Positions 48,023-64,000 of a stretch of DNA of 64,000 nucleotides are shown piece after piece. The position numbers and the translations under genes are program-made. Each line of letters begins with the position of its first letter. Position 1 is the stretch's first letter. The stretch is from Subsaximicrobium wynnwilliamsii. Its GTDB lineage: Bacteria; Bacteroidota; Bacteroidia; Flavobacteriales; Flavobacteriaceae. The notes beneath the pieces were generated by a model. That model did not search any database. It worked only from the letters and a program-made list of their open reading frames with translations, and had not been told where the DNA came from. The DNA is taken from assembly GCF_007997225.1 (NCBI RefSeq), contig NZ_VORM01000001.1, forward strand, positions 1-64,000, written 5' to 3'.

Positions 48023-48037
48023 GTATTTTGTTTTCTC

Positions 48038-48070: not shown

Positions 48071-48083
48071 ATTTTCAACGTTT

Positions 48084-48680: not shown

Positions 48681-48687
48681 GTTCTAA

Positions 48688-49160
48688 GCTTTGAGTTGTG
48701 AGTTGTGAGCTATGAGTTTCAACATCTTCAAGATGTTAATTTCTTTCTTAATGAAGAAATCATCTTTCCGATTTCAGTAAGTAATTCTCGATTTGCTTCA
48801 AACTCTTCCATAGTAATATACTTTCTTAGATACGCTTTGGTATTCCAAGTGACACATTCGTGACTGCTATCCCACGCCATTTTCAAATATCTATTAAAGT
48901 TAGGATCAGTACTCGCTGAACCTTCAGAAATATTGGCTGGAATTGCGTCTGCTGCTCGGCTAAACTGGGAAGATAAGCGGAACATTTCATCTTTCGGAAA
49001 AGTCTTTACTAACTTGTCAATTTGCTCCCCAAATACAATTGCCTTTTGATAAACAATCAAATTTTCAAAACTAAAATGATACTTACTTTCGAATTGCATA
49101 TAGTTTCATTCTAAATTATAAGGTTATCTACTCATGGCTAAAAGCTCATTACTCACAGCT
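48688..49160. repeat. Cassette A: inverted short-repeat arms around a four-helix-bundle ORF
   Basis: Left arm 48688-48719 (units like GAGTTGTGA) and right arm 49129-49160 are inverted relative to each other; aligning the left arm with the reverse complement of the right gives about 24 matches in 33. The right arm ends inside the stop codon of the paaF-like gene and the left arm lies about 8 bp before the paaY start, so the cassette fills the spacer. AACATCTT-C-AAGATGTT (48721-48737) is a further perfect palindrome overlapping the ORF's stop codon. Confidence 0.7.
48728..49099 (-). CDS. Four-helix-bundle protein (S23/IVP family), copy A
   Basis: A 123-residue helical protein of the TIGR02436 four-helix-bundle family, first known from intervening sequences in 23S rRNA genes. 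Diagnostic blocks are FENLIVYQKAIVFGEQIDKLVKTFP, SSQFSRAADAIPANISEGSAS and LLTEIGKMISSLRKKL. Relatives include RNA-binding Avd proteins of diversity-generating elements, but no reverse transcriptase is here. It is one of four such genes in paa spacers; A and B (56653-57033) form one subgroup. Function in an mRNA setting is unknown. Confidence 0.88.
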   Translation of the reverse strand: MQFESKYHFSFENLIVYQKAIVFGEQIDKLVKTFPKDEMFRLSSQFSRAADAIPANISEGSASTDPNFNRYLKMAWDSSHECVTWNTKAYLRKYITMEEFEANRELLTEIGKMISSLRKKLTS

Positions 49161-49911
49161 ATTTATACGTTTTCAACTTCTCCTTCGTAAAGGCACTTAA
49201 TACCAATCTTCCGCTGGTTTCTGCGCGTTCGGCCAATAAATCGTCCCAATTATCAGTACCTGTCCAGAATACTTTTTTCATTTCTATCATGGCTTCAGGA
49301 TTGTAAGTACATAAATGCTCGGCGGTTGCTTTTACGGCCTCATCCAAAGCTTCTGTGCTATCGTAAACCTGAGTGAACAACCCTTTTTGCTTCGCCCATT
49401 CTGGCTCATAAAAACTGTTGGCATCAATGGCGATTTGCGACATGGCGCTTAAGCCTATTTTGCGTTCGATGACTGGACCAACTACAAATGGGCCAATGCC
49501 CAAATTCAATTCACTTAACTTAATGGCTGAAAATTTAGTCGCCATGCAATAATCGGTTGAAGCTGCCAATCCAACACCTCCTCCAACAGTCTTGCCCTGG
49601 ATGCGCCCAATGATAAATTTCGGACATTTACGCATCGCGTTAATGACGTTCGCAAAGCCTGAGAAAAACTCCTTTCCGGTCTCGGCGTCGTTGATGTTGA
49701 TGAGTTCCTTAAAACTTGCACCAGCACAGAATGTCCTGTCGCCGCCACTTTTCAGGACGATGACTTTAATATCGTCATTCTCGCCTGCTTCGGTTATGGT
49801 TTTAGCCAATTTTGCCAATATATCTCCAGGTAAGGAATTGTGCGCTGGATGGAAAAATTCGATGTAGGCTACTTCACTTTCTATATTTTGTTTTACGTAT
49901 GGTTTGGTCAT
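49159..49911 (-). CDS. paaF: Enoyl-CoA hydratase/isomerase family protein, PaaF-like
   Basis: A 250-residue crotonase-fold enzyme. The oxyanion-hole blocks are DRTFCAGASFKELIN and GRIQGKTVGGGVGLAASTDYCMA. It most likely hydrates 2,3-dehydroadipyl-CoA in the lower phenylacetate pathway. I start it at the ATG at 49911 (MTKPYVKQNIE), since the eight residues upstream (MRNDKRKN) lie in the repeat-rich spacer next to the GIY-YIG cassette. Its stop codon touches the right arm of cassette A. Residues beyond the fold do not distinguish it from other hydratases; context decides the name. Confidence 0.82.
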   Translation of the reverse strand: MTKPYVKQNIESEVAYIEFFHPAHNSLPGDILAKLAKTITEAGENDDIKVIVLKSGGDRTFCAGASFKELININDAETGKEFFSGFANVINAMRKCPKFIIGRIQGKTVGGGVGLAASTDYCMATKFSAIKLSELNLGIGPFVVGPVIERKIGLSAMSQIAIDANSFYEPEWAKQKGLFTQVYDSTEALDEAVKATAEHLCTYNPEAMIEMKKVFWTGTDNWDDLLAERAETSGRLVLSAFTKEKLKTYK

Positions 49912-49920
49912 GTTCTTTCT

Positions 49921-50367
49921 TTTGTCATTGCGCACTTGTTGCGCATTCGTATTAATCGTTATTCTTATTGTATTCTGAAAAACCCCAATTTGCGCTCAGG
50001 TCTTTCCATTCATGATTCATTTCTGTAATTATATTGATCTTCCATTGTCGTTTCCACTTTTTAATGGTTTTTTCTCTTCGAATGGCAACTCTAATATCTA
50101 TGTGTTCTTCGAAGTAAACTAACTTTTTTATATTGTAATAACCCACGTGGGTCATGAGTAGCTGTTTTGTGTTCACTCATGCGTCTTTCAATATTGTTGG
50201 TTACCCCAACATAGAAAATATGATTTCTTTCATGGGTTAAAATGTAAGTGTAATATTTTTTCGACATTTCTCTGATATTTTAAGAAACCATGATTTGTGT
50301 ATTCGTAATCAATCAAACGAATGCGCAATAAATGCGCATTGACTTATGAATGCTGCGCATTGACAAT
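49921..50367. repeat. Cassette E: inverted repeats around a GIY-YIG ORF
   Basis: TTGTCATTGCGCA (49922-49934) matches the reverse complement of 50354-50366 in 12 of 13 positions, and TTGCGCATTCGT (49939-49950) matches the reverse complement of 50317-50328 perfectly. The right arm has an extra internal TGCGCATT unit. The right arm reaches the stop codon of paaZ and the left arm lies 10 bp before the paaF-like start, so again the cassette fills a paa spacer. Confidence 0.72.
49952..50267 (-). pseudogene. GIY-YIG nuclease gene, frameshifted
   Basis: From the ATG at 50267 one frame reads MSKKYYTYILTHERNHIFYV then GVTNNIERRMSEHK, the start of a small GIY-YIG nuclease (UvrC-like/YhbQ type). The continuation GYYNIKKLVYFEEHIDIR...KTIKKWKRQWK...HEWKDL is in another frame and ends at 49952. 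A single-base indel near 50120 breaks the gene. The catalytic motif is KYYTYI...FYVGVTN with Arg in ERRMSEH. The protein would be about 100 residues if intact. It is flanked by inverted repeats like the four-helix-bundle ORFs. A sequencing error cannot be excluded. Confidence 0.75.
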
Positions 50368-52868
50368 CATAATAGCCCAAATTGTTCAAAGTGGTGCGAT
50401 AGGTGCTTTCTTTCAAGTAAATAAGATTCATAGCGATTCAATTCCCCAAAAACCAGATTTTTTAATTTGGCGTCGGGATTTTCTTTAAAAAACTCTAAAT
50501 ACTTTTCGCGTTGTGCCTTGAATTTATCTATAGCTGTTTGCAAATCGGGATACTTTAAATCCTCTAGTTTGTCTTTTTCCAACAGCGGGAAATTGGTGCC
50601 CTTCGGAAACTTCTCGTAATTATATAAGCTGTGATGCACTTTCTCCAAATACTTTTCGGGCGTCGCCACTTCAAAATCCTGAATCTCGCCGGAAGCAATC
50701 TTATAAGTGAATTCCAAATGCTCTATCATGTGCTGCGGCGTCATGATGCCCCATTTTGGTTTGGTGTCTTGGAAAAGATTATCAAGACATTCCTCTATTT
50801 TTTCCGAAGTCAACTCTACAAAAATTTCCTGTTTTTTCTGAACCATGGTCAATACGGTGGCAAAGGCAACTTTCTCGTCGGTAAGTGCATCAAAAACCTC
50901 AACGTACCATTTTACGATGCCGCTAGGGTGCTCGGCGGAAGCGACATCTCTGTCCACTTTTTGCTTGCAGGTCAATCTTACATAAACTGTATCGTTATGG
51001 TACAAGGGACGCAGAAATCGGCATTCTTCGAGACCATAATTGGCAGCGACAGGGCCTTTATTGGGATACACAAACAATCCTGCTGCTGCAGAAATAATAA
51101 AATAACCATGTGCCGTTCTATGTTCAAAAATACTTCCGTCGAGAGATGTGATATCGGTATGCGCATAAAAATGGTCCCACGTGAGATTCGCAAAATTGAT
51201 GATATCGGTATCGGTAAAGGTTCGGTTATGTGTTTTTAGCGACATTCCAGGCTCAATATCTTCCCAATGGTATTTGAACGGATGCTGTTCAGCTTCCTTA
51301 TATTTTGAATTTTGCTGATAAATACCAGTGATTTCGGTAATTGTGCTTGGCGAACCTTGAATGGCGGTGCGCTGCAAATAATGTTTTATACCTCTCATGC
51401 CACCCATTTCCTCGCCACCTCCAGCGCGCCCCGGACCTCCGTGCACCAAATAGGGCAATGGCGAACCATGACCTGTGCTTTCCTTGGCGCTTTCGCGGTT
51501 GAGTACTAAAATCCTTCCGTGGTGGCTGGCAGCATTAATCACATAATCTTTGGCGATTTTATCATCATTTGTAGCGATGGAAGACACTAAAGAGCCTTTC
51601 CCCATCTGTGCCAACTGAATGGCTTCGTCTAAATTTTTATAAGGCATAATCGTACTCACTGGACCAAAAGCCTCTCGCTCATGAATAATGCTATTCTGAA
51701 ACGGATGGTCTGCCCTGAGTAAAATAGGACTAATAAACGCGCCTTTTTTGGCATCGGCACCTATGGTTTCAATCGTATCCAAATCCCCATAAACGATTTG
51801 AGCTTCCTTAGCCAAATCGGCAACCGAATCCCGAACCGCCTGCACTTGCTGTTGACTTACCAAAGACCCCATGCGCACTTCTTTCAATCTAGGGTCGCCA
51901 ATGGTCACTTTATCCAAGGCTTTACCGAGTGAAATTTGTACGTCTTCAACCAAATGTTCCGGAACAATGACACGACGAATGGCCGTACATTTTTGTCCGC
52001 ACTTTGAGGTCATTTCATTTCTAACTTCCTTGATAAACAAGTCGAATTCTGGTGTTCCTGGCACCGCATCTTCGCCTAAAACAGAAGCGTTCAATGAATC
52101 TGCTTCCATGGTAAAAGGCACCGATTCCTGAATCAATCGAGGGTGTGCCTTTAACAAACGTCCCGTTTTTGCAGAACCCGTAAAGGTTACGACATCTTGG
52201 GATTCAACGGTGTCCAAAATATTTTTAACCGTCCCGTTGATGATTTGCAGAGCTCCTTCAGGTAAAATCCCAGAAGCGATGATGCTTCGCGCAACAGCTT
52301 CTGCCAAATACGAAGAAGAAGGTGCCGGCAAGACCACTGCTGGTACGCCCGCCATCCAATTGACAGCGCATTTCTCCAACATGCCCCAAACTGGAAAATT
52401 GAAGGCATTGATATGAACCGCCACGCCTTTTTTAGGCACCATGATGTGGTGCGCCATAAAGCGTCCACCGCGGGATAAATCTATGGGTTCGCCTTCAACG
52501 TGATAGGCTTGATTGGGAAATAGTTTTCTTAGGGAAGCATTGGCGAATAAGTTACCGAAGCCCCCTTCAATATCAACCCAGCTGTCTTTGCGCGTGGCGC
52601 CTGTTCTATAGCTTAATTCGTAGAATTCTTCCTTGCGCTTGGTTAAATAAAAAGCCAGGCTTTTGAGCATATTACCACGCTCCTGAAAGGTCATTTTACG
52701 AAGTTTCTCGCCACCTTTTGTTCTTCCGTAGTTAAGGATTTCTGGGATATCAAGACCTTCAATGGCGATACTAGTGAACGCTTCGCCCGTGATGGCATCG
52801 TGTATTGGTGTGCCTTCTTCAGTTCCTGTGGTCCAGTTGCCTTGTATGTAGTGTTGTATTTTATTCAT
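50367..52868 (-). CDS. paaZ: PaaZ oxepin-CoA hydrolase / aldehyde dehydrogenase with extra C-terminal domain
   Basis: An 833-residue bifunctional ring-opening enzyme. Residues 1 to about 520 are an aldehyde dehydrogenase domain (catalytic Cys in MTSKCGQKCTAIRR, Glu in FTMEADSLNASVLG). Residues about 535-685 are a MaoC-like hydratase domain (DHFYAHTDITSLDGSIFEHRTAHGYFIISAAAGLF) that hydrolyses oxepin-CoA. About 145 further residues, absent from the roughly 680-residue enterobacterial enzyme, look like a DinB/DUF1569-type helical domain (WGIMTPQHMIEHLEFTYKIASGE, ERKHLSHHFEQFGLL). It lies between the GIY-YIG cassette and the toxin-antitoxin pair. Confidence 0.93.
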   Translation of the reverse strand: MNKIQHYIQGNWTTGTEEGTPIHDAITGEAFTSIAIEGLDIPEILNYGRTKGGEKLRKMTFQERGNMLKSLAFYLTKRKEEFYELSYRTGATRKDSWVDIEGGFGNLFANASLRKLFPNQAYHVEGEPIDLSRGGRFMAHHIMVPKKGVAVHINAFNFPVWGMLEKCAVNWMAGVPAVVLPAPSSSYLAEAVARSIIASGILPEGALQIINGTVKNILDTVESQDVVTFTGSAKTGRLLKAHPRLIQESVPFTMEADSLNASVLGEDAVPGTPEFDLFIKEVRNEMTSKCGQKCTAIRRVIVPEHLVEDVQISLGKALDKVTIGDPRLKEVRMGSLVSQQQVQAVRDSVADLAKEAQIVYGDLDTIETIGADAKKGAFISPILLRADHPFQNSIIHEREAFGPVSTIMPYKNLDEAIQLAQMGKGSLVSSIATNDDKIAKDYVINAASHHGRILVLNRESAKESTGHGSPLPYLVHGGPGRAGGGEEMGGMRGIKHYLQRTAIQGSPSTITEITGIYQQNSKYKEAEQHPFKYHWEDIEPGMSLKTHNRTFTDTDIINFANLTWDHFYAHTDITSLDGSIFEHRTAHGYFIISAAAGLFVYPNKGPVAANYGLEECRFLRPLYHNDTVYVRLTCKQKVDRDVASAEHPSGIVKWYVEVFDALTDEKVAFATVLTMVQKKQEIFVELTSEKIEECLDNLFQDTKPKWGIMTPQHMIEHLEFTYKIASGEIQDFEVATPEKYLEKVHHSLYNYEKFPKGTNFPLLEKDKLEDLKYPDLQTAIDKFKAQREKYLEFFKENPDAKLKNLVFGELNRYESYLLERKHLSHHFEQFGLL

Positions 52869-53028
52869 TACTATCCTTATTCCTTTCCTAAGAAAGGTAA
52901 TTTGTTTATTCTTCTATTATGATCTATATAAAACCCTTATATTAAACGAACACTAAGAGCTCTATTTCATTATTTCTGTAAACCCTCAAACTGCAGGATT
53001 TAAAATCTTGCATGCATGACTCATGAAC

Positions 53029-53361
53029 TTAAAAAACCATTAAATCATTTATCGTTACAAAAACGGCATCCATTTCCTTTGAAGAAATTGAACCAATCTT
53101 TTTTTTAAATCGTTCTTTGGAGATTGACCTCAAATGGAATATCATGATTTCTGATTTCAGTTTTAATCCGTTCTCAGCGTCTGGCTCAAGTATAGGATTT
53201 CCTTCAAACTTATGTATCGATGAGGACAAGGGACAAACCCACACCACATCCAAGTTTTTATTTAAGTTGTTTCCGCTAACAATTACCGCTGGTCTATTCC
53301 CTGCCTGCTCACTTCCTTGAACAGGGTCAAAATAGACGTTCCAAATTTCTCTTTGCCTCAT
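53029..53361 (-). CDS. MazF/PemK-type toxin endoribonuclease
   Basis: A 110-residue toxin of the MazF/PemK family, usually a sequence-specific mRNA interferase. It starts MRQREIWNVYFDPVQGSEQAGNRPAVIVSGN, the typical GxEqxxxRPavVvs block, and has VVWVCPLSSSI and LKSEIMIFHLRSISKERF. Its start overlaps the antitoxin stop by 4 bp, the normal antitoxin-first order. It lies between paaZ and the thiolase on the same strand, an unusual place for a stress module. Confidence 0.9.
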   Translation of the reverse strand: MRQREIWNVYFDPVQGSEQAGNRPAVIVSGNNLNKNLDVVWVCPLSSSIHKFEGNPILEPDAENGLKLKSEIMIFHLRSISKERFKKKIGSISSKEMDAVFVTINDLMVF

Positions 53362-53603
53362 TCTGTATCATGTTTCTGAAGCATTTCGAAATAATCTGCC
53401 ATGCCTTCTTCCGCCATTGCCATGACATCCTTATCCTCTGAAGCGCGTCGAAAAGATTTCGCATATCGCGCTTTTTTCAATTCCTGTAAATACATGGTTA
53501 AGGCTTTCTCAATAAGCTTGTTTTTCGGAATATGAAGGTTTTTGGCTTCGTTGGCCAATTTTTCCAAAAGGTCGTCTGGTAAAGAAGATGTGAATGTTGC
53601 CAT
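53358..53603 (-). CDS. Ribbon-helix-helix antitoxin
   Basis: An 81-residue protein with an N-terminal ribbon-helix-helix (MATFTSSLPDDLLEKLANEAKNLHIPKNKLIEKAL) and an acidic C-terminal tail (DKDVMAMAEEGMADYFEMLQKHD) that would block the toxin. Being upstream and overlapping the MazF-like gene by 4 bp makes the pair convincing. It probably represses its own promoter; the spacer upstream (53604-53661) is AT-rich with TATATTTATATTTTG-like sequence. Confidence 0.88.
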   Translation of the reverse strand: MATFTSSLPDDLLEKLANEAKNLHIPKNKLIEKALTMYLQELKKARYAKSFRRASEDKDVMAMAEEGMADYFEMLQKHDTE

Positions 53604-53661
53604 TTTATATTTATATTTTGTAAATATAATTCATATTTACAAATCGGAAAAATGCAAGATG

Positions 53662-54873
53662 TTAAAAATTAGCGTTTTCAATCACGCAGGCATAGCCTTG
53701 CCCAACACCAATACACATGGTAACCAAAGCATATCGTTTGTTTTGCTCCTTCAATTCAATAGCTGCAGAATAGGTAAGTCGAGCACCTGTGACACCTAGC
53801 GGATGCCCAATTGCAATGGAGCCGCCATTGGGATTCAATCTTGGGTCGTCATCGGCAATGCCCCAAGCTCTGGTGCATGCCAAAGCTTGGGCAGCGAAGG
53901 CTTCATTCAATTCAATAACGTCCATATCGGCCATGGTCAAGCCTGCTTTTTTCAAGGCTTTATTTGAAGCTTCCACCGGTCCAATGCCCATAACTCGAGG
54001 TTCAACGCCCACTACTGCAGAGCTTACAATCCTTGCTAAAGGCGTAAGATTATATTTTTTTATAGCGGCTTCGGAAGCAATAATCGTTGCCGCCGCACCA
54101 TCGTTTAACCCCGAGGAATTTCCAGCAGTAACGCTCCCGTTTTCCTTTTTGAACGCCGGGCGCAATTTCCCTAAAATTTCTAGGGATGTTTTTGGTTTGA
54201 CAAATTCATCTTTAGAAAATTGTATCGGGTCCTTTTTGCGCTGCGGAATTTCGACCGTCATGATTTCTTTGGCCAATCTTCCGTTTTCTTGTGCTTTTGT
54301 AGCCTTCATCTGGCTCCAATAAGCAAATTTATCTTGGTCTTCACGTGAGATTTTGTACTTCTCGACTAGATTTTCAGCAGTGGTTCCCATACCGTCGGTA
54401 CCGTACATTTTTTCCATTTTCGGGTTGATAAAACGCCATCCGAAGGTAGAGTCGTACATCTTGGAATCGCCACCAAACCCTGTGGACGGTTTAGACATCA
54501 CGTAGGGACCGCGGGTCATATTCTCAACCCCGCCAGAAATAAACACGTCGCCATCGCCGGCCTTTATAGCTCGGTTGGCATGAATCATGGCCGATAAGCC
54601 AGAACTGCACAACCGGTTCACTGTTTCTCCAGGCACCGTAAACGGCAATCCTGCTAAAAGCGAGGCCATTCTTGCCACATTTCGATTGTCTTCGCCAGCC
54701 TGATTGGCACAGCCCATAATGACATCGTCATAGGCCTCTGGTGGAATGTTTGGGTTTCGTTTTACGATTTCGGCAATGACCAAGGCTGCTAAATCGTCTG
54801 TTCGCACTGTCGATAATGTGCCTTTGTAGTTTCCTATTGGTGTTCTAATTCCGTCTATGATGTATGCTTCCAT
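53662..54873 (-). CDS. paaJ: 3-oxoadipyl-CoA/acetyl-CoA thiolase
   Basis: A 403-residue thiolase, probably the beta-ketoadipyl-CoA thiolase that ends the phenylacetate pathway with succinyl-CoA and acetyl-CoA. The nucleophilic Cys lies in TVNRLCSSGLSAMIHANRAI, the His in GGSIAIGHPLGVTGARL, and the second Cys in VTMCIGVGQGYACVIE. I start it at the ATG at 54873 (MEAYIIDGIRTPIGNYKGTLS); the frame is open 23 codons further but those residues come from the tandem repeat upstream. A 144-bp tandem repeat begins right at this start codon. Confidence 0.92.
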   Translation of the reverse strand: MEAYIIDGIRTPIGNYKGTLSTVRTDDLAALVIAEIVKRNPNIPPEAYDDVIMGCANQAGEDNRNVARMASLLAGLPFTVPGETVNRLCSSGLSAMIHANRAIKAGDGDVFISGGVENMTRGPYVMSKPSTGFGGDSKMYDSTFGWRFINPKMEKMYGTDGMGTTAENLVEKYKISREDQDKFAYWSQMKATKAQENGRLAKEIMTVEIPQRKKDPIQFSKDEFVKPKTSLEILGKLRPAFKKENGSVTAGNSSGLNDGAAATIIASEAAIKKYNLTPLARIVSSAVVGVEPRVMGIGPVEASNKALKKAGLTMADMDVIELNEAFAAQALACTRAWGIADDDPRLNPNGGSIAIGHPLGVTGARLTYSAAIELKEQNKRYALVTMCIGVGQGYACVIENANF

Positions 54874-55236
54874 TGTTAATTGTGAATATCGAATTTTGAT
54901 TACTGAATATCGAAGTAAAAAACCCCAAATCTCAAAATTCATTATTTAAGTTTAAATTTTATAGTTACCGCTAAGCCGATTTGTTACTCGTCATGCTTCG
55001 GTTATGCATTGGATATTGTTAATTATGAATATCGAATTTTGATTACTGAATATCGAAGTAAAAAAACTCCGAAATCTCAAATTTCATTAGTTTGGTTTAA
55101 ATTTTATAGTTATCGCTAAGCCGATTTACTAATCATTATGCTTCGGTTCAGCATTGGATATTGTTAATTATGAATATCGAATTTTGATTACTGAATATCG
55201 AAGTAAAAAAAAACTCCGAAATCTTAAAATTCATGC
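54872..55236. repeat. About 144-bp tandem repeat, 2.5 copies
   Basis: Copies at 54872-55014 (143 bp), 55015-55159 (145 bp) and 55160-55236 (partial). Each begins ATTGTTAATTATGAATATCG and continues with TTTTGATTACTGAATATCG. The first copy starts at the start codon of the thiolase. The remaining spacer (55237-55317) has opposite-sense units such as TTCATTATTCATCATTC, so the whole spacer could fold. No ORF lies inside. Confidence 0.85.
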
Positions 55237-55317
55237 TTTGATCTCAAACTCGTTGGTTATCAAGACGCCACTTCATTATTCATCATTCTTCAGTTCAATA
55301 TTCGTTATTCTATTCGT

Positions 55318-56178
55318 CTAATTTAAAAGCGCTGAAAACGTATCGCCTTGTCTAATATCTCCAGTGTTATAGCCTTTCATAAACCATTGCATCCGTTGCT
55401 CGGAAGTACCGTGGGTAAAGCTATCTGGAGACACACTACCTCGTGTTCTTTTTTGAATGGCATCGTCGCCCACAGCATTGGCAGCACTCATGGCTTCTTC
55501 GATGTCGCCAGCTTCAAGGTATTGCTTGTTTCGATTTGCCCTAACGCCTGCGTAGAAATCGGCCTGAAGCTCTTGTGCCACCGAAAGTTCATTTGCCTCA
55601 GTCTCATTGGTTTGCTATTGTAATTGCCTTACTTTTTTGGAAGTGCCCATTAAGGTTTGGATGTGGTGCCCAATTTCATGGGCAGTGACGTAAGCAATGG
55701 CAAAATCGCCACCCTTGGCACCAAAACGGGTTTTCAATTCATCAAAGAAAGCCAAATCCATGTACAGTTTTTGGTCTGCCGGACAATAAAACGGGCCGGA
55801 GGCCGAACTGGCGTTTCCACAACCTGTGCTTACCGCATCTATAAATAATACCATATTCGGTTTTTGATAGGTTCCTAAATTATTTTCGCTGAAAATATCC
55901 GTCCAAGTATCTTCAGTATAGGCCAGAATAGTCGCCATAAAATCGCCCATTTCCTGTTCTTCGCTTGTCAGCTCTCTTTGCTCTACTTGCTGTGTGGATT
56001 GACCGCTACCCAACTGTTCGACGATGGGTGCCAATTGCTGACCTGTTTCGCCGCCAAAGAGCTGCAATGCGATTACTATAATCGCAATAACGCCGCCACC
56101 GGCAACGAGCTTGCCTTTGCCGCCCATCCCACGACGGTCTTCCACATTACCGCTTTTTCTATTACCCTGCCATTTCAT
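55318..56178 (-). pseudogene. ypfJ: Neutral zinc metallopeptidase (YpfJ type) with in-frame amber stop
   Basis: Both parts are in the same frame. The first 187 residues hold a basic N-terminus (KWQGNRKSGNVEDRRG), a membrane segment (about 28-45, VAGGGVIAIIVIALQLFGG) and the active-site motif TAHEIGHHIQTLMG. A TAG at 55615-55617 follows. The frame resumes with TNETEANELSVAQELQADFYAG, the block with the third zinc ligand Glu, and runs to a normal end at 55318. The stop probably replaced a Gln codon (CAG or CAA). The protein would be truncated and inactive unless the stop is read through. It sits between paaI and the thiolase. Confidence 0.85.
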
Positions 56179-56221
56179 TTTTTTAGTGTTTTGGTTAAAC
56201 GCTTATAAAAGTAATAATTTT

Positions 56222-56632
56222 TTATTCCCATTCTTTATTAGTTCTGTAAACAATCCCTTTAAAAAGCGCAACTAATTCATTGTCTCGTTTAACCTCAACG
56301 ATGTTAAATCCCAATTTATTTTTCACTTTTTCGATTACCGATTCCGCCACCAAATAATCGCCTTCTTCCAAAGCTTCAATATGGTTGATACTGGTTTCAA
56401 TAGACACCGCATATTTTCCGTGGGAGTTGGCTGCAAAGCCACAAGCGGTATCTGCCAAAGCATAACTTATCCCGCCGTGTGCTTTGCCCATACTATTGAG
56501 CATGTCCTTTCTAATGGTCATCCCAACCTTACAGCGCCCGATTTCAGATTCCAGGATTTGGATGCCGAGCCAGGAGCTGAAGGCATCTTGACTTAGCATT
56601 TTATGGGATATGTTACTTTCGTTGATTGGCAT
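56222..56632 (-). CDS. paaI: PaaI-type hotdog thioesterase
   Basis: A 136-residue single hotdog-fold acyl-CoA thioesterase. The active-site block is MLNSMGKAHGGISYALADTACGFAANSHG, with VSIETSINHIEALEEGDYLVAES after it, as in PaaI, which hydrolyses ring-hydroxylated phenylacetyl-CoA and other blocked CoA esters. It precedes the broken metallopeptidase gene. Cassette B begins directly at its start codon. Confidence 0.9.
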   Translation of the reverse strand: MPINESNISHKMLSQDAFSSWLGIQILESEIGRCKVGMTIRKDMLNSMGKAHGGISYALADTACGFAANSHGKYAVSIETSINHIEALEEGDYLVAESVIEKVKNKLGFNIVEVKRDNELVALFKGIVYRTNKEWE

Positions 56633-57083
56633 TAGGGATTTGGGATTAGGGATTAGTTATGCTGATTCCTTTCTAGAATTTTTCTCATCAATGAAGACAT
56701 CATCTTTGTCAGTTCTGACAACATCTTTCGATTCTCTTCATCTGTTTCAAATTCAAAATAGGAACGCCGTTTCGCTTTAGTGCTGCAACTAACGCATTCA
56801 TTTGCGCTATAAATAGCATGATTCAAATGTTTAACGAATTGTGCATCAGAACCTGGATAACCCTCGGCTATATTTAATGCAATTGAGTCGGAAGCTCTTC
56901 TAAATTGAGAAGACAATGCATACAATTCATGATTTGGGAATTTTTTTACCAATGCATCCACTGTTTCTCCAAAATCCATTGCTTTTTGATAGACCTGTAA
57001 ATCTTCAAACTTAAAATGATAATTACTTTTCATATACTCACATTTACTAATTCCTAATTCCTAATCCCTAATGCCTAGTCCTT
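56631..57083. repeat. Cassette B: inverted GGATTAG-type arms around a four-helix-bundle ORF
   Basis: Left arm 56631-56656 (ATTAGGG, GGATTAGGGATTAG units) matches the reverse complement of 57047-57072 (CTAATTCCTAATTCC, CTAATCCCTAAT) in about 23 of 26 positions. The left arm begins at the paaI start codon and overlaps the ORF's stop; the right arm ends just before the paaH stop codon. The cassette therefore exactly fills the paaH-paaI spacer. Confidence 0.8.
56653..57033 (-). CDS. Four-helix-bundle protein (S23/IVP family), copy B
   Basis: A 126-residue member of the TIGR02436 family: FKFEDLQVYQKAMDFGETVDALVKKFP, LSSQFRRASDSIALNIAEGYPG (the conserved NIAEG), AIYSANECVSCSTKAKRR and MLSELTKMMSSLMRKIL. 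It is the same subgroup as copy A (48728-49099), but the arms around it have a different repeat unit. The basic C-terminal helix would suit RNA binding, which is known for relatives but not shown for this protein. Confidence 0.9.
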   Translation of the reverse strand: MKSNYHFKFEDLQVYQKAMDFGETVDALVKKFPNHELYALSSQFRRASDSIALNIAEGYPGSDAQFVKHLNHAIYSANECVSCSTKAKRRSYFEFETDEENRKMLSELTKMMSSLMRKILERNQHN

Positions 57084-58254
57084 AAATCTCAAACCCCACA
57101 CCTTCTTTTAGTTTTTTCCGCAACAAAGGGCTGCATCGGTATCGGTCTTCGCGATAGGTGTTGTAGAGTTCGTCCATGTGGTCAACGCACCAAGCGATGC
57201 CTTTTTCGTTAGCCCAAGCCAATAGGCCTTTTGGATAATTGACGCCTTTGGTCATGGCGTTATCGATGTCTTCCGCGGAAGCGATATTTAGAAACAAAGC
57301 ATCTGCTGCTTCGTTGATGAGCATGACGAGAACGCGGTTGAAGATTTGCTCCTGCAATTTGGTATCATGAGATTCCTTCGTTGCGCTCGGAATGACAGCC
57401 TTACCGTTTGAATCATAGTCGTAAAATCCTTTTCCAGATTTTCTGCCGAGGTAGCCAGCTTCTGCAAAGCGCTTTTGGGTAAGTGAGGGCTTGTACCTTG
57501 GGTCGAAATAAAAGGCGGTAAATACGGTTTCGGTTACGGTGTAATTGACGTCGTTGCCAATGAAATCCATAAGCTCGAAAGGCCCCATTTTGAAACCTCC
57601 CAGTTTTTTCATGGCTGCATCTATGCTCGCAAAATCTGCAATGCCTTCTTCATAAATCCGTAAGGCTTCGCCGTAAAATGGTCTTGCCACACGGTTGACG
57701 ATAAAGCCGGGCGTGTCTTTGGCGATGGCGACGGTTTTTTTCCAGTCGGAAATGGTTTTTACTGCAGTTTCCAATACCGCTTTAGACGTCTGAATGGCAG
57801 GAATCACTTCTACCAACCTCATCAAAGGTGCTGGGTTGAAAAAGTGAATCCCGATACATCGCTCGGGTTTTTTGAGGGATGCTGCGATGGATGCAATTGA
57901 CAAGCTTGAGGTATTTGAAGCGATGATGCAATCTTCGGAAACGTAGGTTTCCAATTCTGAAAAAACGCTCTTCTTGATGTCTAGATTTTCGACAATGGCC
58001 TCAATGGTCAAATCGGAATCTGATAAATCCTTTAACTGCGACACGTAAGTTATGTTATTCTGAATGCGCTGTTTTTCTTCGGAATCGATGCGTCCTTTTT
58101 CAATCAACCGCGCCAATATTTTTTCGAGGGAAGCTTTTGCTTTATCGAGAGCCGCCTGATTGGTGTCGAATAATTTGACATTGCACCCTGCTGTGGCTGC
58201 GACTTGCGCTATGCCGGAACCCATTGTTCCGCTTCCTATAATTCCTATGTTCAT
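57082..58254 (-). CDS. paaH: 3-hydroxyacyl-CoA dehydrogenase
   Basis: A 390-residue NAD-dependent 3-hydroxyacyl-CoA dehydrogenase, here 3-hydroxyadipyl-CoA dehydrogenase of the phenylacetate pathway. The Rossmann motif is at the very N-terminus (MNIGIIGSGTMGSGIAQVAA). IASNTSSLSIASIAASLKKPERCIGIHFFNPAPLMRLVEVI contains the catalytic His, and GFIVNRVARPFYGEALRIYEEG and GPFELMDFIGNDVNYTVTE follow. A second C-terminal dehydrogenase domain repeat ends in YNTYREDRYRCSPLLRKKL. I start at 58254 because the 20 preceding residues come from repeat arm sequence. Confidence 0.92.
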   Translation of the reverse strand: MNIGIIGSGTMGSGIAQVAATAGCNVKLFDTNQAALDKAKASLEKILARLIEKGRIDSEEKQRIQNNITYVSQLKDLSDSDLTIEAIVENLDIKKSVFSELETYVSEDCIIASNTSSLSIASIAASLKKPERCIGIHFFNPAPLMRLVEVIPAIQTSKAVLETAVKTISDWKKTVAIAKDTPGFIVNRVARPFYGEALRIYEEGIADFASIDAAMKKLGGFKMGPFELMDFIGNDVNYTVTETVFTAFYFDPRYKPSLTQKRFAEAGYLGRKSGKGFYDYDSNGKAVIPSATKESHDTKLQEQIFNRVLVMLINEAADALFLNIASAEDIDNAMTKGVNYPKGLLAWANEKGIAWCVDHMDELYNTYREDRYRCSPLLRKKLKEGVGFEI

Positions 58255-58395
58255 AATTCTAAAATATAAATATCGAATATCCAATTTGGAATGTTGAATT
58301 TCGAAGTTTTTCAATCTTGCTTCTATTTGAAGGTGGTGCTCACATCAGCATTTATTTAAGTCTTAAGTTTTCAATTAAGTGCTTTACCTTACTTT

Positions 58396-58770
58396 TTATT
58401 TTTGGATATTATTCTTACTCTGTGCCGTACGAATACTGGAAACGAAAATGGCAATCAATTCATTATTCTCCGATAGCAACTTATCTAAGCGCTCTATATC
58501 CTTAATTAAATTTGCGCCTTTCTGAATCTTTAAGTTGACTAAGGACTCTCTCAATTCCTTTAAGCAAATCTTCATTTTATGAAGAAAATCCCTTGAAGAT
58601 TCTGCACCTTGCGCTTCGCCATAATTTAAGGCTGAAGCTGTGGCAGAACGAATCAATTGTTTTGCCAAATGCTGAGAGGCGAAATTTCCATCGATTTTTC
58701 CACAGATTAATATAACCTCCACAGCAAACTGAATTAAGCGTTCCTCTAAATCGTATTTATAGTTTGCCAT
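58396..58770 (-). CDS. Four-helix-bundle protein, copy C
   Basis: A 124-residue helical protein of the four-helix-bundle family, second subgroup: YDLEERLIQFAVEVILICGKI, SQHLAKQLIRSATASALNYGEAQGAESSRDFLHKMKICLKELRESL, and a C-terminal helix DKLLSENNELIAIFVSSIRTAQ. It shares LAKQLIRS...ALN.GE...KELRES with copy D (62146-62487). It lies in the paaG-paaH spacer inside cassette C. Confidence 0.88.
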   Translation of the reverse strand: MANYKYDLEERLIQFAVEVILICGKIDGNFASQHLAKQLIRSATASALNYGEAQGAESSRDFLHKMKICLKELRESLVNLKIQKGANLIKDIERLDKLLSENNELIAIFVSSIRTAQSKNNIQK

Positions 58771-58899
58771 TTTAAACTTCTTTTTTGGTTATTCGTTATC
58801 AACGTAAGTCGTTGACACCAAAACTTTTCGTTATTCAAATCGTTTTTTTACTTCTTTATTCGTTATTCAACAGTTCATTATTCAGTATTCATCTGTTCA

Positions 58900-59052
58900 T
58901 TATTCGATATTCTTTGCAGCTGTGGCTGAACGAATCAATTGCTTTGCCAAATGCTGAGAGGCAAAATTTCCATCGATTTTTCCACAGATTAATATAACCT
59001 CCACAGCAAACTGAATTAAGCGTTCCTCTAAATCGTATTTATGGTTTGCCAT
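58900..59052 (-). pseudogene. Duplicated 5' fragment of four-helix-bundle gene C
   Basis: A 50-residue frame, MANHKYDLEERLIQFAVEVI then LICGKIDGNFASQHLAKQLI and RSATA, identical to copy C except at residue 4, then AKNIE and stop. It is the product of the 259-bp segmental duplication (58636-58894 to 58918-59176) and lacks the last two helices. It is probably non-functional. Confidence 0.85.
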
Positions 59053-59170
59053 TTTAAACTTCTTTTTTGGTTATTCGTTATCAAAATAAGTCGTTAACAC
59101 CAAAACTTTTCGTTATTCAAATCCTTTTTTTACTTCTTTATTCGTTATTCAACAGTTCATTATTCGATAT

Positions 59171-59953
59171 TCATCTCCCTTTAAACTCTGGTTTTCGCTT
59201 TTCCATAAACGCTGCGACGCCTTCTGCATAATCTTCAGTACTTGCTGCTTCGATTTGTAATTTGCTTTCTAATGCCAATTGGGCTTCTAAATCGTTGGTC
59301 ATGGATTGGTTGTACAATTCTTTGATGAGACCCAAAGCCTTAGTCGGCATATTGGCTAATTTTAAGGCCAAGGCATTGATGGTTGTTTCAAATTCTTCCG
59401 TAGGCACACACTTATAAATCATTCCCATTTTTTCAGCTTCTTCCGCAGAAATCTTATCGCCCAACAGCGCTAATGCCAAGGCTTTTTGAAAACCGATAAG
59501 TCTTGGTAAAAAGAACGTCCCAGCACTGTCTGGAACCAATCCAATTAAACTGAAGGCTTGAATGAAGCTCACTTTGTCATGCGCTACCACAATATCACAG
59601 GCCAAGGCGATATTCGCACCGGCTCCTGCCGCCACGCCATTTACGGCTGCAATGATTGGTTTTTTAATGGCGCGGATTCTTGTGATTATCGGATTGTAAT
59701 GCTCTTCCAGAATTTTTTTGAAGCCGGGATTCAAATCTGGGTTGGTCACTTCCTTTAAATCTTGGCCTGCGCAAAATGCTTTTCCGTTTCCGGTTAGCAC
59801 AATGGCTCTTACCGCTGCGTTTTTTTCGCACTCATCTAATGTGTCCTGTAGCAGAAAAGCCATTTCCCGATTAAAACTGTTGAAGACTTCGGGACGGTTT
59901 AGCCTTATGGTTGCTACTTTGTTTTCTATTTTTACTTCTATTGAATTACTCAT
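59171..59953 (-). CDS. paaG: 2-(1,2-epoxy-1,2-dihydrophenyl)acetyl-CoA isomerase
   Basis: A 260-residue crotonase-fold enzyme that isomerises ring-1,2-epoxyphenylacetyl-CoA to oxepin-CoA. It has the PaaG pattern NGKAFCAGQDLKEVTNPDLNPGFKKILEEHYNPIITRIRAIKKPIIAAVNGVAAGAGANIALACDIV, with both oxyanion-hole regions, and FIQAFSLIGLVPDSAGTFFLPRLIG containing the catalytic Asp. Length is normal. It lies downstream of paaD after a 615-bp repeat-rich spacer. Confidence 0.92.
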   Translation of the reverse strand: MSNSIEVKIENKVATIRLNRPEVFNSFNREMAFLLQDTLDECEKNAAVRAIVLTGNGKAFCAGQDLKEVTNPDLNPGFKKILEEHYNPIITRIRAIKKPIIAAVNGVAAGAGANIALACDIVVAHDKVSFIQAFSLIGLVPDSAGTFFLPRLIGFQKALALALLGDKISAEEAEKMGMIYKCVPTEEFETTINALALKLANMPTKALGLIKELYNQSMTNDLEAQLALESKLQIEAASTEDYAEGVAAFMEKRKPEFKGR

Positions 59954-60568
59954 ATATATTAATTTTTGGTTATAGGTTAAATCTATTGGGTAACCAATAT
60001 CTTTTTCATTTTTTCCTTGATGAAAAAACGAAACAAAAAAATCAAGACTTGAGATACTTTTACTAAAAATTTCTTTCGCTTCGGCGCAAAAATAAAGTTT
60101 GCGTAGTTCAAGATTTATTTTGTAAGTATCAAGTTTTTATTTATATGATTTTTAAATGCGACGATTTTTGCTTAATCCTTCGCTTCAATTCATTTTTTAC
60201 GTAAAATCCTCTTATGTCGAACTTAAACCTAATCAAAGAACACGATGTTATCATACCTACAATAAACCATATCGAGCTTTATTTTTATCCTATACGCAAA
60301 GGTTTTTAAATCCTGTGAGGCCTTTTGCGTTAAGGATTGCAGCGGCATCCTTTTTTGTTTTTCTCAAAAAAGATATAGCGGAAAGCCTGACCCTTTTTTT
60401 CCTTCAAAAAAGGGTAACGCCCTTAAGAATCTTTTTTCTATCTTGAGTTTTAAAACGCTCTATACCCGCTCTTGGTTTTTTCTTACTCGTAAAATTGGTT
60501 TGCTTTGGCCATTGACTTTTCTTTGTTTCTGTTATACTTGGCTGGAGATTCCTGCCTGCGCAGGACTA
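59954..60568. other. Repeat-rich spacer between paaD and paaG
   Basis: A 615-bp spacer with no credible gene. It holds a perfect 10-bp hairpin ACCCTTTTTT / AAAAAAGGGT (60390-60399, 60406-60415), a degenerate AAAGGTTTTTAAATCCTG palindrome near 60300, CCTGCCTGCGCAGG near 60551, and an imperfect inverted pair CTTGAGATACTTTTAC / GTAAGTATCAAG (about 60047-60132). Phrases such as AAGGATTGCAGCGGCATCC and ATAGCGGAAAGCCTGACCC have the look of dispersed Bacteroidota extragenic repeats. Plus-strand ORFs here are repeat-derived. Confidence 0.5.
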
Positions 60569-61069
60569 TTACTTCAAGCATTTAAAATAATCAAAAGGCT
60601 CTTGGCAATCATCACATTGAAACTGTGCTTTACAGGCTGTTGAACCAAACTGACTCACTAATCGTGTGTTTTGAGAACCACAATTGGTGCATTTCACAAT
60701 CCGTTTCCCGTTGAGCAAGACGTCAATATCGGCCTCGGCACCTAAGGGCGCCGCGATACCATAGTCTTCAAGAGCTTTTCTGCCACGAGGGGTAATCCAA
60801 TCTGTGGTCCAGGCGGGATGAAGAATGAGCTCCACTTCAGCTTCATAACCTGCGTCTTCTAAAGCCGTTTTGATATCGTCGCCAATAACATCCATGGCAG
60901 GACAACCGCTATAGGTTGGTGTGATTTCAACTTTAACCTTGTTATTCTTAATGACCGCAGAGCGAACGACCCCCATATCCATAATGGACAGGACAGGGAT
61001 TTCTGGGTCGGAAACGGCTTCCAGAATCTCTATTAGTTTTTTGTCTATATTTTGTTCTGTTGTGGTCAT
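60569..61069 (-). CDS. paaD: Phenylacetate-CoA epoxygenase subunit PaaD
   Basis: A 166-residue PaaD, a MIP18/DUF59-family protein needed for maturation of the PaaABCE epoxidase. The N-terminal DUF59 domain has LEAVSDPEIPVLSIMDMGVV and TPTYSGCPAMDVIGDDI. A zinc-ribbon-like C-terminus has CTNCGS, then CKAQFQCDDCQEPFDYFKC, giving six Cys. It follows paaC after a 266-bp spacer with palindromic repeats. PaaE, usually the next subunit gene, is absent here and must lie elsewhere. Confidence 0.94.
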   Translation of the reverse strand: MTTTEQNIDKKLIEILEAVSDPEIPVLSIMDMGVVRSAVIKNNKVKVEITPTYSGCPAMDVIGDDIKTALEDAGYEAEVELILHPAWTTDWITPRGRKALEDYGIAAPLGAEADIDVLLNGKRIVKCTNCGSQNTRLVSQFGSTACKAQFQCDDCQEPFDYFKCLK

Positions 61070-61335
61070 AATTAATAGGGAATGTCGAACTCTGAATATC
61101 GAATCATGAAGTTTTTAATTTCAAGTTCTGCATGTTTATTTAATTTATCTGCCTGAGAAATAGGTGCCGAATGAGAAGTTATAGGGCTGTTTCACTTCGG
61201 AATTCGTTATCTTAAATTCATCACTCAAAGCTCTATTTGGTTTCCCCCAAGGGGAAGAACTCTCACTCGATTGTACTATGTTTTCTTTTTTACTACTAAT
61301 CAAACTTCCTCCCTTTGGGAGGATTGAGGTGGGCA
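61070..61335. repeat. paaC-paaD spacer with C-run/G-run palindromes
   Basis: The spacer carries TTTCCCCCAAGGGGAAG (61241-61257) and CTTCCTCCCTTTGGGAGG (61307-61324) in inverted relation, like the repeat inside the E1 gene, plus GAATATCGAATCATGAAG at its left end, the same motif as cassette C arms. The 65-codon minus-strand frame through it is repeat-derived rather than a gene. Confidence 0.5.
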
Positions 61336-62088
61336 TTACCAATCCATATTTGGATAGGCGCGTTGCATGTACTGTAGCTCACTCAACAAAAAGCCTAAAT
61401 GCTCTGTGTGGATGCCTTCTTTGCCGCCTTTTTGGAAGTATTTGGATTCTGGGATTTCCAATGTGGCTTGCTCTAAAATAGTGCTGACTTTTTCGTAATA
61501 GTCCTTTTTCAATTTTGTCACATCAACACCAATGCCTTCCTCAACCATGGCCTTATCTGCTTCGGTTTGATGGAACAATTCATCGGTATAGGTCCATAAA
61601 TCGTTGATGGCTTGTTGCATTTTGGAATGACTTTCTTCAGTGCCATCGCCTAAGCGCTTGACCCAATCTGAAGAAAACCGCTGGTGGTAACGCACTTCCT
61701 TAATCGATTTTTTGGCGATGGCCGAAAGCGTTAAATCCTTGCTTTTTTCCAATTCGGTTAAAAACAATAAATGATAGACATCGAATAAAAATTGCCGACC
61801 AATGGTGTAGGCGAAATCGGTATTGGGTTGCTCTGCCAACAGCACATTGAGATAATCCCGCTCTTTCCGGAGCATGGCAATATCATCTTCGGTACGCCCA
61901 TCATTTGCGATTTTTGCTGCATATTGAAAATAGCCGCGCACCTGTCCAAACAAATCCAAGGAAATATTGGTACAGGCGATATCGGTTTCCAAATTGGGAC
62001 CATGACCGCAGAGTTCGCCCATGCGCTGGCCGAGGATTAGGGAGTTGTCGGCGATGCCGAGGATGTAGTTGTATAGATTTGTGTTCAT
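61336..62088 (-). CDS. paaC: Phenylacetyl-CoA epoxidase subunit PaaC
   Basis: A 250-residue helical, ferritin-like structural subunit of the epoxidase that pairs with PaaA. Family blocks: YILGIADNSLILGQRMGELCGHGPNLETDIACTNISLDLFGQ, KERDYLNVLLAEQPNTDFAYTIGRQF, KEVRYHQRFSSDWVKRLGDGTEESHSKMQQAI and a C-terminal GKEGIHTEHLGFLLSELQYMQRAYPNMDW. Length is normal. The left arm of cassette D begins 6 bp upstream of its start codon. Confidence 0.95.
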   Translation of the reverse strand: MNTNLYNYILGIADNSLILGQRMGELCGHGPNLETDIACTNISLDLFGQVRGYFQYAAKIANDGRTEDDIAMLRKERDYLNVLLAEQPNTDFAYTIGRQFLFDVYHLLFLTELEKSKDLTLSAIAKKSIKEVRYHQRFSSDWVKRLGDGTEESHSKMQQAINDLWTYTDELFHQTEADKAMVEEGIGVDVTKLKKDYYEKVSTILEQATLEIPESKYFQKGGKEGIHTEHLGFLLSELQYMQRAYPNMDW

Positions 62089-62093
62089 ATTAT

Positions 62094-62530
62094 GAATTTG
62101 AAATTGAAGTTGAAATCGAAGATGAAGATGAAGATGAAGACGACTTTAGTATCGTTTCAAAATCGTGACTATAATTCTTATCAACTCATCGTTTTCTTTA
62201 TTTAAACTTTCTAAATCTTCTTTTTTATAAATAAGCGCTTTTGTTTGAATATTTATATTTCTAATACTCTCTCTAAGTTCCTTGAGGACAATGCGAAGCT
62301 TATTTGCTTTATCTTTATCACTTGCTGCGCCTAAAAATTCTCCAAAATTAAGAGCCGCTGAACAAGAGGAACGAATCAACTGTTTAGCCAAATAATCTGC
62401 CGCAAAGGTTTTTGGATTATTCGAATAAAAACGAATTATCGATGCCGCAAAGTCTTCTAATCTATCATCTAAATCAAATTGCTTCATGATATGCGATTCA
62501 TCTTCGTCTTCATCTTCATCTTCGTCCTCA
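62094..62530. repeat. Cassette D: inverted GAAGAT hexamer arms around a four-helix-bundle ORF
   Basis: Left arm (about 62094-62143) is a run of GAAGAT/GAAATC/GAAGAC hexamers; right arm (62496-62530) is the inverse, TTCATCTTCGTC-type. Aligned as reverse complements they match in about 27 of 32 positions of the core. The right arm ends 2 bp from the paaB stop codon and the left starts 6 bp from the paaC start. Its outer part (GAATTTGAAATTGAAGTTGA) is nearly the same as the hexamers in the E2 linker. Confidence 0.82.
62146..62487 (-). CDS. Four-helix-bundle protein, copy D
   Basis: A 113-residue helical protein of the same subgroup as copy C: FDLDDRLEDFAASIIRFYSN, DYLAKQLIRSSCSAALNFGEFLGAASDKDKANKLRIVLKELRESIRNINIQ and LESLNKENDELIRIIVTILKRY. 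It lies between paaB and paaC, splitting the epoxidase subunit genes that are normally tightly linked. It is flanked by inverted hexamer arms. Confidence 0.88.
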   Translation of the reverse strand: MKQFDLDDRLEDFAASIIRFYSNNPKTFAADYLAKQLIRSSCSAALNFGEFLGAASDKDKANKLRIVLKELRESIRNINIQTKALIYKKEDLESLNKENDELIRIIVTILKRY

Positions 62531-62532
62531 TT

Positions 62533-62823: not shown

Positions 62824-62979
62824 GTGGTTTTATCTTTTAGATTATAGACGAATAGAATATAAAGGCTAGACGAATAAAATTGAGACTTATGAATGCTTCG
62901 CTTTTAGACGTAAGACTTAAAACAAAAATTTAAAATCAATTGTCTTAAGTCATAAGTCATTTCGTCTTAAGTCATTTTT
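62824..62979. repeat. paaA-paaB spacer with inverted short repeats, no ORF
   Basis: Units AGACGAATA, GAGACTTATGAATG, GACGTAAGACTTAAAAC on the left face TTGTCTTAAGTCATAAGTC and CGTCTTAAGTC on the right in inverted sense. It looks like the arms of a cassette that carries no ORF. Confidence 0.5.
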
Positions 62980-63936: not shown

Positions 63937-63938
63937 CT

Positions 63939-63975: not shown

Positions 63976-64000
63976 CAGGTTGAACTTTATTTTTATTTTT

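Follow-up and report, generated by a model that had tools for sequence, protein, structure and literature searches.

Four-helix-bundle genes between inverted heptad arms at operon junctions: a probable family of small mobile elements

Positions 1 to 64,000 of contig NZ_VORM01000001.1 from Subsaximicrobium wynnwilliamsii (this whole 64,000-nucleotide stretch is the window in what follows) include a set of small four-helix-bundle genes that lie in the spacers of a catabolic operon. These genes, together with the repeats that flank them, are the subject of our analysis. From 44.4 to 64.0 kb, the window carries a minus-strand cluster for phenylacetate-type degradation, followed by 2-oxo acid dehydrogenase genes. 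Profile searches located PaaZ domains within the cluster, and the gene names used here for the paa and fad operons are in part ones that we presume. Four spacers of the cluster each contain a minus-strand open reading frame (ORF) of 113–126 codons (FHB1 to FHB4, Table 1; ORFs were called throughout as longest ORFs, with no gene finder). A preliminary description of this DNA had assigned all four to the S23/IVP four-helix-bundle family, and a profile search bears this out, with each of the four exceeding the curated cut-offs of both TIGR02436 and PF05635.

The same description placed these four ORFs, and a GIY-YIG nuclease ORF in a fifth spacer, between inverted arms built from degenerate tandem repeats of 6–9 nt. 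The arms hold up for FHB1, FHB2 and FHB4, in which they are 77–90% complementary and outscore their own shuffles (p ≤ 0.010; 200 shuffles). FHB3, which lies partly in a 282-nt tandem duplication with a damaged copy, has arms that do not reach significance (shuffle p = 0.09). The GIY-YIG ORF drops out as a fifth case: its frame is broken by a frameshift, and its flanks carry repeated TGCGCA palindromes (seen by eye), not degenerate heptads. The repeat unit is mostly 7 nt and is 6 nt in the FHB4 lineage, and the arms do differ between loci, each having its own heptads with only a loose consensus in common. When the spacer RNAs are folded, the arms form the outermost helix in FHB2 (z = −4.64), FHB4 (z = −3.42) and FHB1 (z = −2.08), and fail to do so in FHB3 (z = −1.09).

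Homologues of these genes recur at operon junctions in relatives of the host. One relative each has an FHB1 homologue (61% identical) at paaG/paaY, an FHB2 homologue (82–83%) at paaH/paaI and an FHB3 homologue (73%) at paaF/paaH, and FHB4 homologues occupy the paaB/paaC junction in two relatives and the paaA/paaB junction in a third. The paaA/paaB junction of the host itself contains a heptad hairpin with no ORF. The first 96 nt of this spacer fold with a z of −3.00 and show a lag-7 self-match of 0.52, and its top match, with a score of 66 against 41 for the runner-up, is the full fadB/fadA element of the same genome.

Table 1. Four-helix elements, arms and related features of the paa cluster (window coordinates).
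Feature	Position	Strand	Basis or remark
FHB1 ORF (PF05635/TIGR02436), paaG/paaY junction	48728..49099	-	both profiles
FHB1 5' arm	49130..49160	-	77% complementary, shuffle p 0.010
FHB1 3' arm, TGAGTTG heptads	48687..48717	-	arm alignment; Tandem Repeats Finder also
GIY-YIG remnant, frameshifted, paaZ/paaG junction	49952..50267	-	distinct element type
FHB2 ORF (PF05635/TIGR02436), paaH/paaI junction	56653..57033	-	both profiles
FHB2 5' arm, ATTAGGG/ATTAGGA heptads	57046..57075	-	90% complementary, 30 nt
FHB2 3' arm, includes paaI ATG	56628..56657	-	repeat search
FHB3 ORF (PF05635/TIGR02436), paaF/paaH spacer, arms not significant	58396..58770	-	both profiles
Truncated duplicate of FHB3 N-terminal part	58900..59052	-	inside 282-nt tandem duplication 58636-59176
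FHB4 ORF (PF05635/TIGR02436), paaB/paaC junction	62146..62487	-	both profiles
FHB4 5' arm, 6-nt GAAGAT-type units, overlaps paaB stop codon	62504..62534	-	87% complementary, 31 nt
FHB4 3' arm, repeat extends to about 62100, adjoining paaC start	62113..62143	-	repeat search
ORF-less heptad hairpin spacer, paaA/paaB junction	62824..62979	-	whole spacer z −1.79

TIGR02436 has ten matches in the host genome, and 15 of the 23 genomes that represent the genus contain at least one; our genus set comprises 47 four-helix loci and 44 small GIY-YIG loci. For each locus, we aligned the 150 nt upstream of the ORF match to the reverse complement of the downstream 150 nt. Arm scores exceeded those of dinucleotide shuffles of the same locus (p < 0.05) in 32 of the 47 four-helix loci and lay above the 95th percentile of 2104 mismatched arm pairs in 29 (61.7%). 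This cut-off was passed by only 4.4% of 704 control genes, taken from 40 fetched regions and the window, and by 4.5% of the 245 small ones among them. ORF-free spacers of at least 150 nt come closer to the elements than the genes do, with 13.6% of 176 reaching the arm score by a related but not identical measure that compares the two halves of a spacer, and some of these 176 spacers contain ORF-less hairpins. The outcome that would have refuted the preliminary description, inverted arms as frequent in spacers without such ORFs, is not what we observed. The flanks of the genus loci match themselves at lags of 7, 14 and 21 nt with frequencies of 0.39, 0.36 and 0.36 upstream and 0.38, 0.36 and 0.35 downstream, against 0.26–0.31 in controls and in GIY-YIG flanks. 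These peaks are confined to four-helix flanks, which identifies the arms as heptad arrays and sets the GIY-YIG flanks apart as a different kind of sequence.

A wider scan of species genomes gave the same picture. We took the best 80 of 584 loci, from a query that contained two fadB/fadA members, so that counts per site are biased; 79 could be tested, one flank being too short. The records are mostly Bacteroidota, many of them metagenome bins, and others are named as Acidobacteria, Beta-, Alpha- and Deltaproteobacteria, Clostridia, Gemmataceae, Ignavibacteriae and SAR324. Inverted arms exceeded shuffles (p < 0.05) in 67 of 79 loci, with 49 above the 95th percentile of mismatched pairs, and the lag-7 self-match of the two flanks (0.41 and 0.43) forms peaks about as high as in the genus. 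Pooling the 89 elements with an arm score of at least 24 yielded a loose 5' arm consensus, AGWNNTN, with an information content of 2.39 bits, compared to at most 1.78 bits in 30 column-permuted nulls. AG outnumbers CT in 74 of these 5' arms and the reverse is true in 5, and AG-type 5' heptads recur by eye in loci of other phyla. In an even sample across Bacteroidota, the family is present in 153 of 198 genomes, with up to 16 copies.

The four-helix ORFs lie along the direction of the operons that contain them. Within the genus, 46 of 47 are flanked on both sides by same-strand genes, the single exception having a 110-codon co-directional ORF ahead of the opposing gene, and in the wider scan 67 of 73 loci with both neighbors known are co-directional. 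The corresponding counts in controls are 462 of 622 for all genes and 55 of 94 for small genes of the host genome, and for insertion at random sites in random orientation one would expect roughly half the control frequency. Later filters left 44 genus elements, which occupy at least 18 distinct contexts, so shared descent alone is insufficient to account for this bias.

The elements also run almost exactly from gene to gene. From 137 elements that remained after short flanks, runs of N and short matches were dropped, boundaries were set in 99, of which 87 have both neighbors identified. In these 87, the median gap between the upstream stop codon and the outer edge of the 5' arm is 2 nt, that between the outer edge of the 3' arm and the next start codon is 9 nt, and the whole stop-to-start distance has a median of 473 nt; the earlier claim that outer ends abut stop and start thus applies in general. 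The upstream stop codon is TAG in 40 of 87 elements, compared to 52 of 233 and 59 of 293 control genes, and the first AG of the element may often complete this stop codon, with the proviso that the 87 elements are not independent. As a separate observation, the end of fadB and the start of the element or hairpin form a palindrome around the stop codon in L220, L235 and L153; in L220 and L235 this palindrome is TTCGCAACTAGTTGCGAA, as if the gene end had been copied inverted.

Comparison of syntenic clusters reveals that one and the same junction can be tight, hold an ORF-less hairpin or hold a full element. The paa gene order is kept in 20 relatives. At paaB/paaC (20 genomes including the host), three genomes have a full element of 436–448 nt, four have a 1-nt overlap of the two genes, and 13 have other spacers of 38–186 nt, many of them palindromes of the kind associated with GIY-YIG ORFs. 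Elements at other paa junctions span 414–478 nt, except in the duplicated paaF/paaH spacer of the host (856 nt), and in relatives these junctions shrink to 3 nt or to overlaps, and paaA/paaB to 10 nt. The ORF-less hairpin found at the host paaA/paaB junction has counterparts of the same style in four relatives (z = −1.3 to −5.1 over the five folded).

The fadB/fadA junction shows the same three states. Of 142 matching genomes, the best 30 represent 29 genera; in these, the junction is tight in 11 (3–13 nt), holds a full element in nine (429–604 nt), an ORF-less hairpin-like spacer in nine (77–116 nt) and another palindrome in one. Within the genus, 14 of 21 genomes are tight (4–5 nt), four have ORF-less spacers (68–120 nt) and three have full elements (436–512 nt). 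Several fad operons combine a full element at one junction with a hairpin at the next; three have two full elements of different heptads, and one has a shortened 293-nt copy. One genome with no TIGR02436 match (G001, locus L275) keeps two heptad hairpins at fad junctions.

Hairpin states were assigned by eye, and folds and periodicity were computed afterwards. Seven of the nine ORF-less fadB/fadA spacers show a clear lag-7 excess (the exceptions are L228 and L233) and six fold with z below −2.5, and eight ORF-less spacers from the genus have fold z values from −1.2 to −5.1. Overall, the mean z of 14 ORF-less junction spacers, one of them non-heptad, is −2.98, and a set of 31 control spacers of comparable length, which shares one member with the 14, averages −1.86. 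Interior loops recur in these folds about every 7 nt, as judged by eye.

The ORF and its arms are also found together in different operons. An Aequorivita element (L130) shares its gene neighborhood, read by eye, with the paaA/paaB elements of the genus, and its ORF is 77–78% identical to those of fadB/fadA elements of Salegentibacter and Haloflavibacter. In both comparisons, the 45 nt on each side of the ORF are similar between the elements (equalled by 0 of 500 shuffles), but the adjoining stretches of gene are dissimilar (equalled by 117 to 413 of 500), so the shared unit runs from arm to arm. A second lineage (L158, L167, L170 and L171) occurs both before fadA and before fadB. More broadly, 88 pairs with different neighbors and an ORF identity of at least 60% share arm words beyond any of 2000 permutations. 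We also tested for a deep code linking protein to heptad, and saw none: ORF identity and arm similarity are uncorrelated over 7392 different-context pairs from the 137 elements (Spearman −0.057), and arm words are common to close ORF pairs only.

ORF-less hairpins frequently resemble the arms of some full element at another site; the G022 fadB/fadA hairpin, for instance, matches a lineage from another operon. For 10 hairpins in element-bearing genomes, the best match is in the same genome in only one case. An extra direct copy of the 3' arm precedes the ORF in 12 of 99 elements, and recombination between 3' arm copies would leave an ORF-less hairpin.

Among element pairs that share neighbors (defined by tblastx similarity of either neighbor, a loose measure that links paralogues and yields pairs that are not independent), those with 40–50% ORF identity have a better arm match within a locus than across loci in 748 of 768 cases (28.2 versus 17.5). 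The same is true of 553 of 605 pairs at 50–60% identity and of 71 of 87 at 60–70%. The arms evolve faster than the ORF, yet they do so jointly, a pattern that fits compensatory change and also fits DNA-level correction between inverted repeats. Among arm mismatches in the 124 of 137 elements that reach an arm score of 24 under a softer scoring scheme, G-U pairs show no excess over the reverse class, A-C (120 versus 165), which makes DNA-level correction at least as likely as compensatory change and argues against strong selection for RNA pairing. The ORF is under purifying selection, with a median dN/dS of 0.08 (56 pairs with dS < 2; 11 more are saturated). By sequence, the protein matches two solved structures, 2gsc and 2rld, the first of which is reported as a pentamer of four-helix bundles (PMC4990558).

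The preliminary description had treated the four-helix and GIY-YIG cassettes as one class, a grouping that we tried and rejected. Both types sit at junctions of the same operons, and both have ORF-less counterparts at other junctions. Unlike the four-helix loci, however, the 44 small GIY-YIG loci of the genus show no 7-nt periodicity in their flanks; short palindromic motifs replace the heptads, appearing in both flanks of 23 of 44 GIY-YIG loci and of 0 of 47 four-helix loci, and only 25 of 30 GIY-YIG ORFs with both neighbors known are co-directional. Inverted flanks beyond shuffles are present in 26 of 44 (frames of at least 200 codons were excluded from the arm test, and broken copies were merged by coordinates). 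In loci L068–L087, many of the paa junctions are occupied by palindromes with no ORF, TTCCTGCGAAGGCAGGAATCTC and GTCACCTTGAGCGCAGTCGAAAGGTCTC among them; together with the small GIY-YIG ORFs that lie between such palindromes, they form a parallel family of junction elements.

Of the two readings offered in the preliminary description, mRNA intervening elements or selfish elements that target intergenic sites, the second agrees better with our data: the four-helix loci are probably a widespread family of small mobile elements living between the cistrons of operons, with a plan similar to that of 23S rRNA intervening sequences. The sequences show their anatomy, their co-direction, the tight and occupied states of one junction and the ORF-less hairpins. 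They also show the occurrence of ORF plus arms in different operons, the fast joint change of the arms and the purifying selection on the protein. The full form usually measures about 0.41–0.6 kb, comprises a PF05635 four-helix (S23/IVP) gene within inverted degenerate-heptad arms, and fills the gap from stop to start with its ORF along the operon, and a short ORF-less form of about 70–120 nt occupies the same kind of junction. In the model that we propose, the protein would be made from the host operon transcript, so that a copy would have a usable gene, and persist, only in sense orientation. The probable target of the protein is the heptad hairpin of the element that encodes it, in RNA or DNA form, and the protein may help the element to move or to be kept. 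Placement between a stop and a start codon may be nearly harmless to the host, much as the 23S insert is tolerated because the cut rRNA works.

Several observations weigh against a mobile family. Significant arms are missing in 15 of 47 genus elements and in 12 of 79 from the wider scan, so that ORFs without flanking complementarity do exist as a minority. The alignments of L158, L167, L170 and L171 span one arm only, ORF identity does not predict arm similarity across contexts, and the case for shuttling between operons is mainly one clear instance (L130) plus the word statistics. We saw no transposition event, and inspection of the paa and fad junctions by eye revealed no clear target-site duplication; copies at the same junction could reflect vertical inheritance or transfer of whole operons, not insertion. 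At ORF identities of 70% or more, arms match no better within a locus than across loci (52 versus 49 of 108 pairs), because the arms are still alike. Several ORF-less spacers classed as hairpins (L268, L272, G003 fadB/fadA, G016 and G019) barely outdo shuffles in folding (z = −0.5 to −1.8). Finally, the hairpins of G001, kept with no family gene in the genome, imply that the protein is dispensable for keeping them, at least temporarily.

The rival that survives best, and that we nevertheless judge unlikely, is that these are mRNA devices serving the host: hairpins that are cut by RNase III or that protect 3' ends and so set the levels of operon segments, with the protein acting as an operon-specific RNA-binding regulator of several heptad hairpins. 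Strict co-direction, placement in operons and a conserved protein would all be expected of such devices, as would arms that pair as the outermost helix in FHB1, FHB2 and FHB4 (z = −2.1 to −4.6), ORF-less hairpins at neighboring junctions of one operon and the stronger folding of the 14 junction spacers relative to controls; the Coxiella 23S insert, moreover, is reported to be excised by RNase III (PMC4990558). Yet arm mismatches are not enriched in G-U pairs, FHB3 does not fold with its arms outermost, and the tight fadB/fadA junction in 14 of 21 genus genomes indicates that the operon works without elements.

A DNA-level by-product, in which slippage and quasipalindrome template switching grow and correct heptad hairpins at operon junctions, where selection is weak, and the gene is a passenger, seems to us quite improbable. 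It would explain why the arm match within a locus outlasts sequence change with no wobble bias and why ORF-less hairpins exist without a gene, and an earlier survey reports heptamers as the commonest short repeats in the majority of its genomes (PMC4679880). Such a process does not account for the same arms accompanying the same ORF into another operon, for the arm words shared by close ORFs or for the AG-type 5' heptads that recur across the pooled set and, by eye, in other phyla; nor would it leave the GIY-YIG ORFs of the same operons without heptad arms, or favor the element loci so strongly over control genes (61.7% of 47 versus 4.4% of 704). That these are ordinary small operon genes inherited vertically, their arms being attenuator-like hairpins, plain terminators or spacers, fits the many copies at the same junction across many genera and the conserved protein, but is very hard to reconcile with the patchy full, hairpin and tight states of one junction within a genus, the same ORF lineage at different junctions and the rarity of such arms around small control genes (4.5% of 245).

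The closest known counterparts of the proposed mobile family are the 23S rRNA intervening sequences of Coxiella and Leptospira, in which, as here, terminal inverted repeats loop out a PF05635-type ORF; the four-helix elements do follow the intervening-sequence plan that the preliminary description had ascribed to them. The Coxiella insert is described as 428 nt long, with a 28-bp stem, an S23 ORF and excision by RNase III, and with tandem GACAGAT heptamers just 5' of the ORF (PMC4990558). Read as AGATGAC, this heptamer would fit our AG-type heptads in part. The two differ in that intervening sequences sit in rRNA and the present elements between protein genes, and in that the ORF is under purifying selection here but reported as decaying in Coxiella (PMC4990558). 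We found no Rfam match that would indicate an rRNA location in 40 element loci or in window positions 46000–64000, and the neighbors of the paa and fad elements are protein genes. Because the rRNA location fails, we do not file the elements as 23S intervening sequences, of which RNase III excision, a step that the long stems predicted by folding would permit, is another defining trait. As of 2016, ORF-bearing rRNA inserts had been known for more than 25 years, with function and origin described as unclear (PMC4990558).

Other known systems resemble the elements in part. Miniature inverted-repeat transposable elements and insertion sequences likewise have full and ORF-less forms, inverted ends and presence or absence at orthologous sites, but the arms here are locus-specific heptads with a loose consensus and no fixed end sequence. 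The ORF of the elements is PF05635, and no transposase was noted, in an analysis that included no search aimed at further ORFs inside the elements. Avd of diversity-generating retroelements is a related four-helix family, and one of the four window proteins matches the Avd (E = 2.8e-05) and bAvd (E = 2.8e-04) models, both below cut-offs; the best Avd score among the four is 24.4 bits, far short of the cut-off of 80. Frequent occurrence of PF05635 in the vicinity of diversity-generating retroelements is reported (PMC10053308), as are PF05635 genes in cas loci (PMC3936711). Group I and II introns gave no match in window positions 46000–64000 or in 20 genus loci, and the one group II match in 20 other loci (L178) lies near a short contig end, about 2 kb from the ORF.

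Heptamer repeats (TAACTGA) are described in Beggiatoaceae, Cyanobacteria and some Bacteroidetes as short intergenic arrays, mostly just 5' of start codons in one genome (PMC4679880). Unlike the arms, these arrays repeat a single sequence in direct orientation; the account given there includes one inverted case and no enclosed ORF (PMC4679880). A published gene table for Flavobacterium columnare places a four helix bundle protein about 35 nt from guanylate kinase on one side and 34–89 nt from a nucleotide adenylyltransferase on the other (PMC5524665), a spacing that fits the stop/start placement of our elements. Literature titles and opening abstracts, in a search that excluded subscription papers and preprints, describe no such intercistronic elements.

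A broader claim, which we hold tentatively and at somewhat less than even likelihood, is that the elements constitute a previously undescribed class of mobile element, distributed over several phyla, inserted in sense orientation at stop/start junctions, equipped with a four-helix protein and self-matched heptad arms, and accompanied by non-autonomous hairpins that this protein would mobilize or otherwise act on in trans, of which the 23S intervening sequences would be only the best-known branch. PF05635/TIGR02436 genes are widespread in Bacteroidota. If operon-junction elements are their main form, the question of mobility becomes testable in free-living laboratory bacteria, with operons of protein genes and not with rRNA. 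In that case, part of the intercistronic DNA of these genomes would also be mobile-element DNA that is able to alter the RNA structure of operons.

The paa cluster contains further features that lie apart from the four-helix elements. A PemK/MazF-like toxin gene and a ribbon-helix-helix partner form a small cassette in the paaJ/paaZ spacer (53029–53603, minus strand). A 145-nt unit with GAATATCGAA-type words is repeated 2.5 times ahead of a thiolase gene (54872–55234). At 55318–56178 (minus strand), what appears to be a single gene is split between two frames, as one ORF of 187 codons and another of 87; we take it to be a metallopeptidase, a HEIGH motif being present. Finally, a Flavo-1 RNA (RF01705, 59.5 bits) lies on the plus strand at 60322–60396, between the paaF and paaD homologues.

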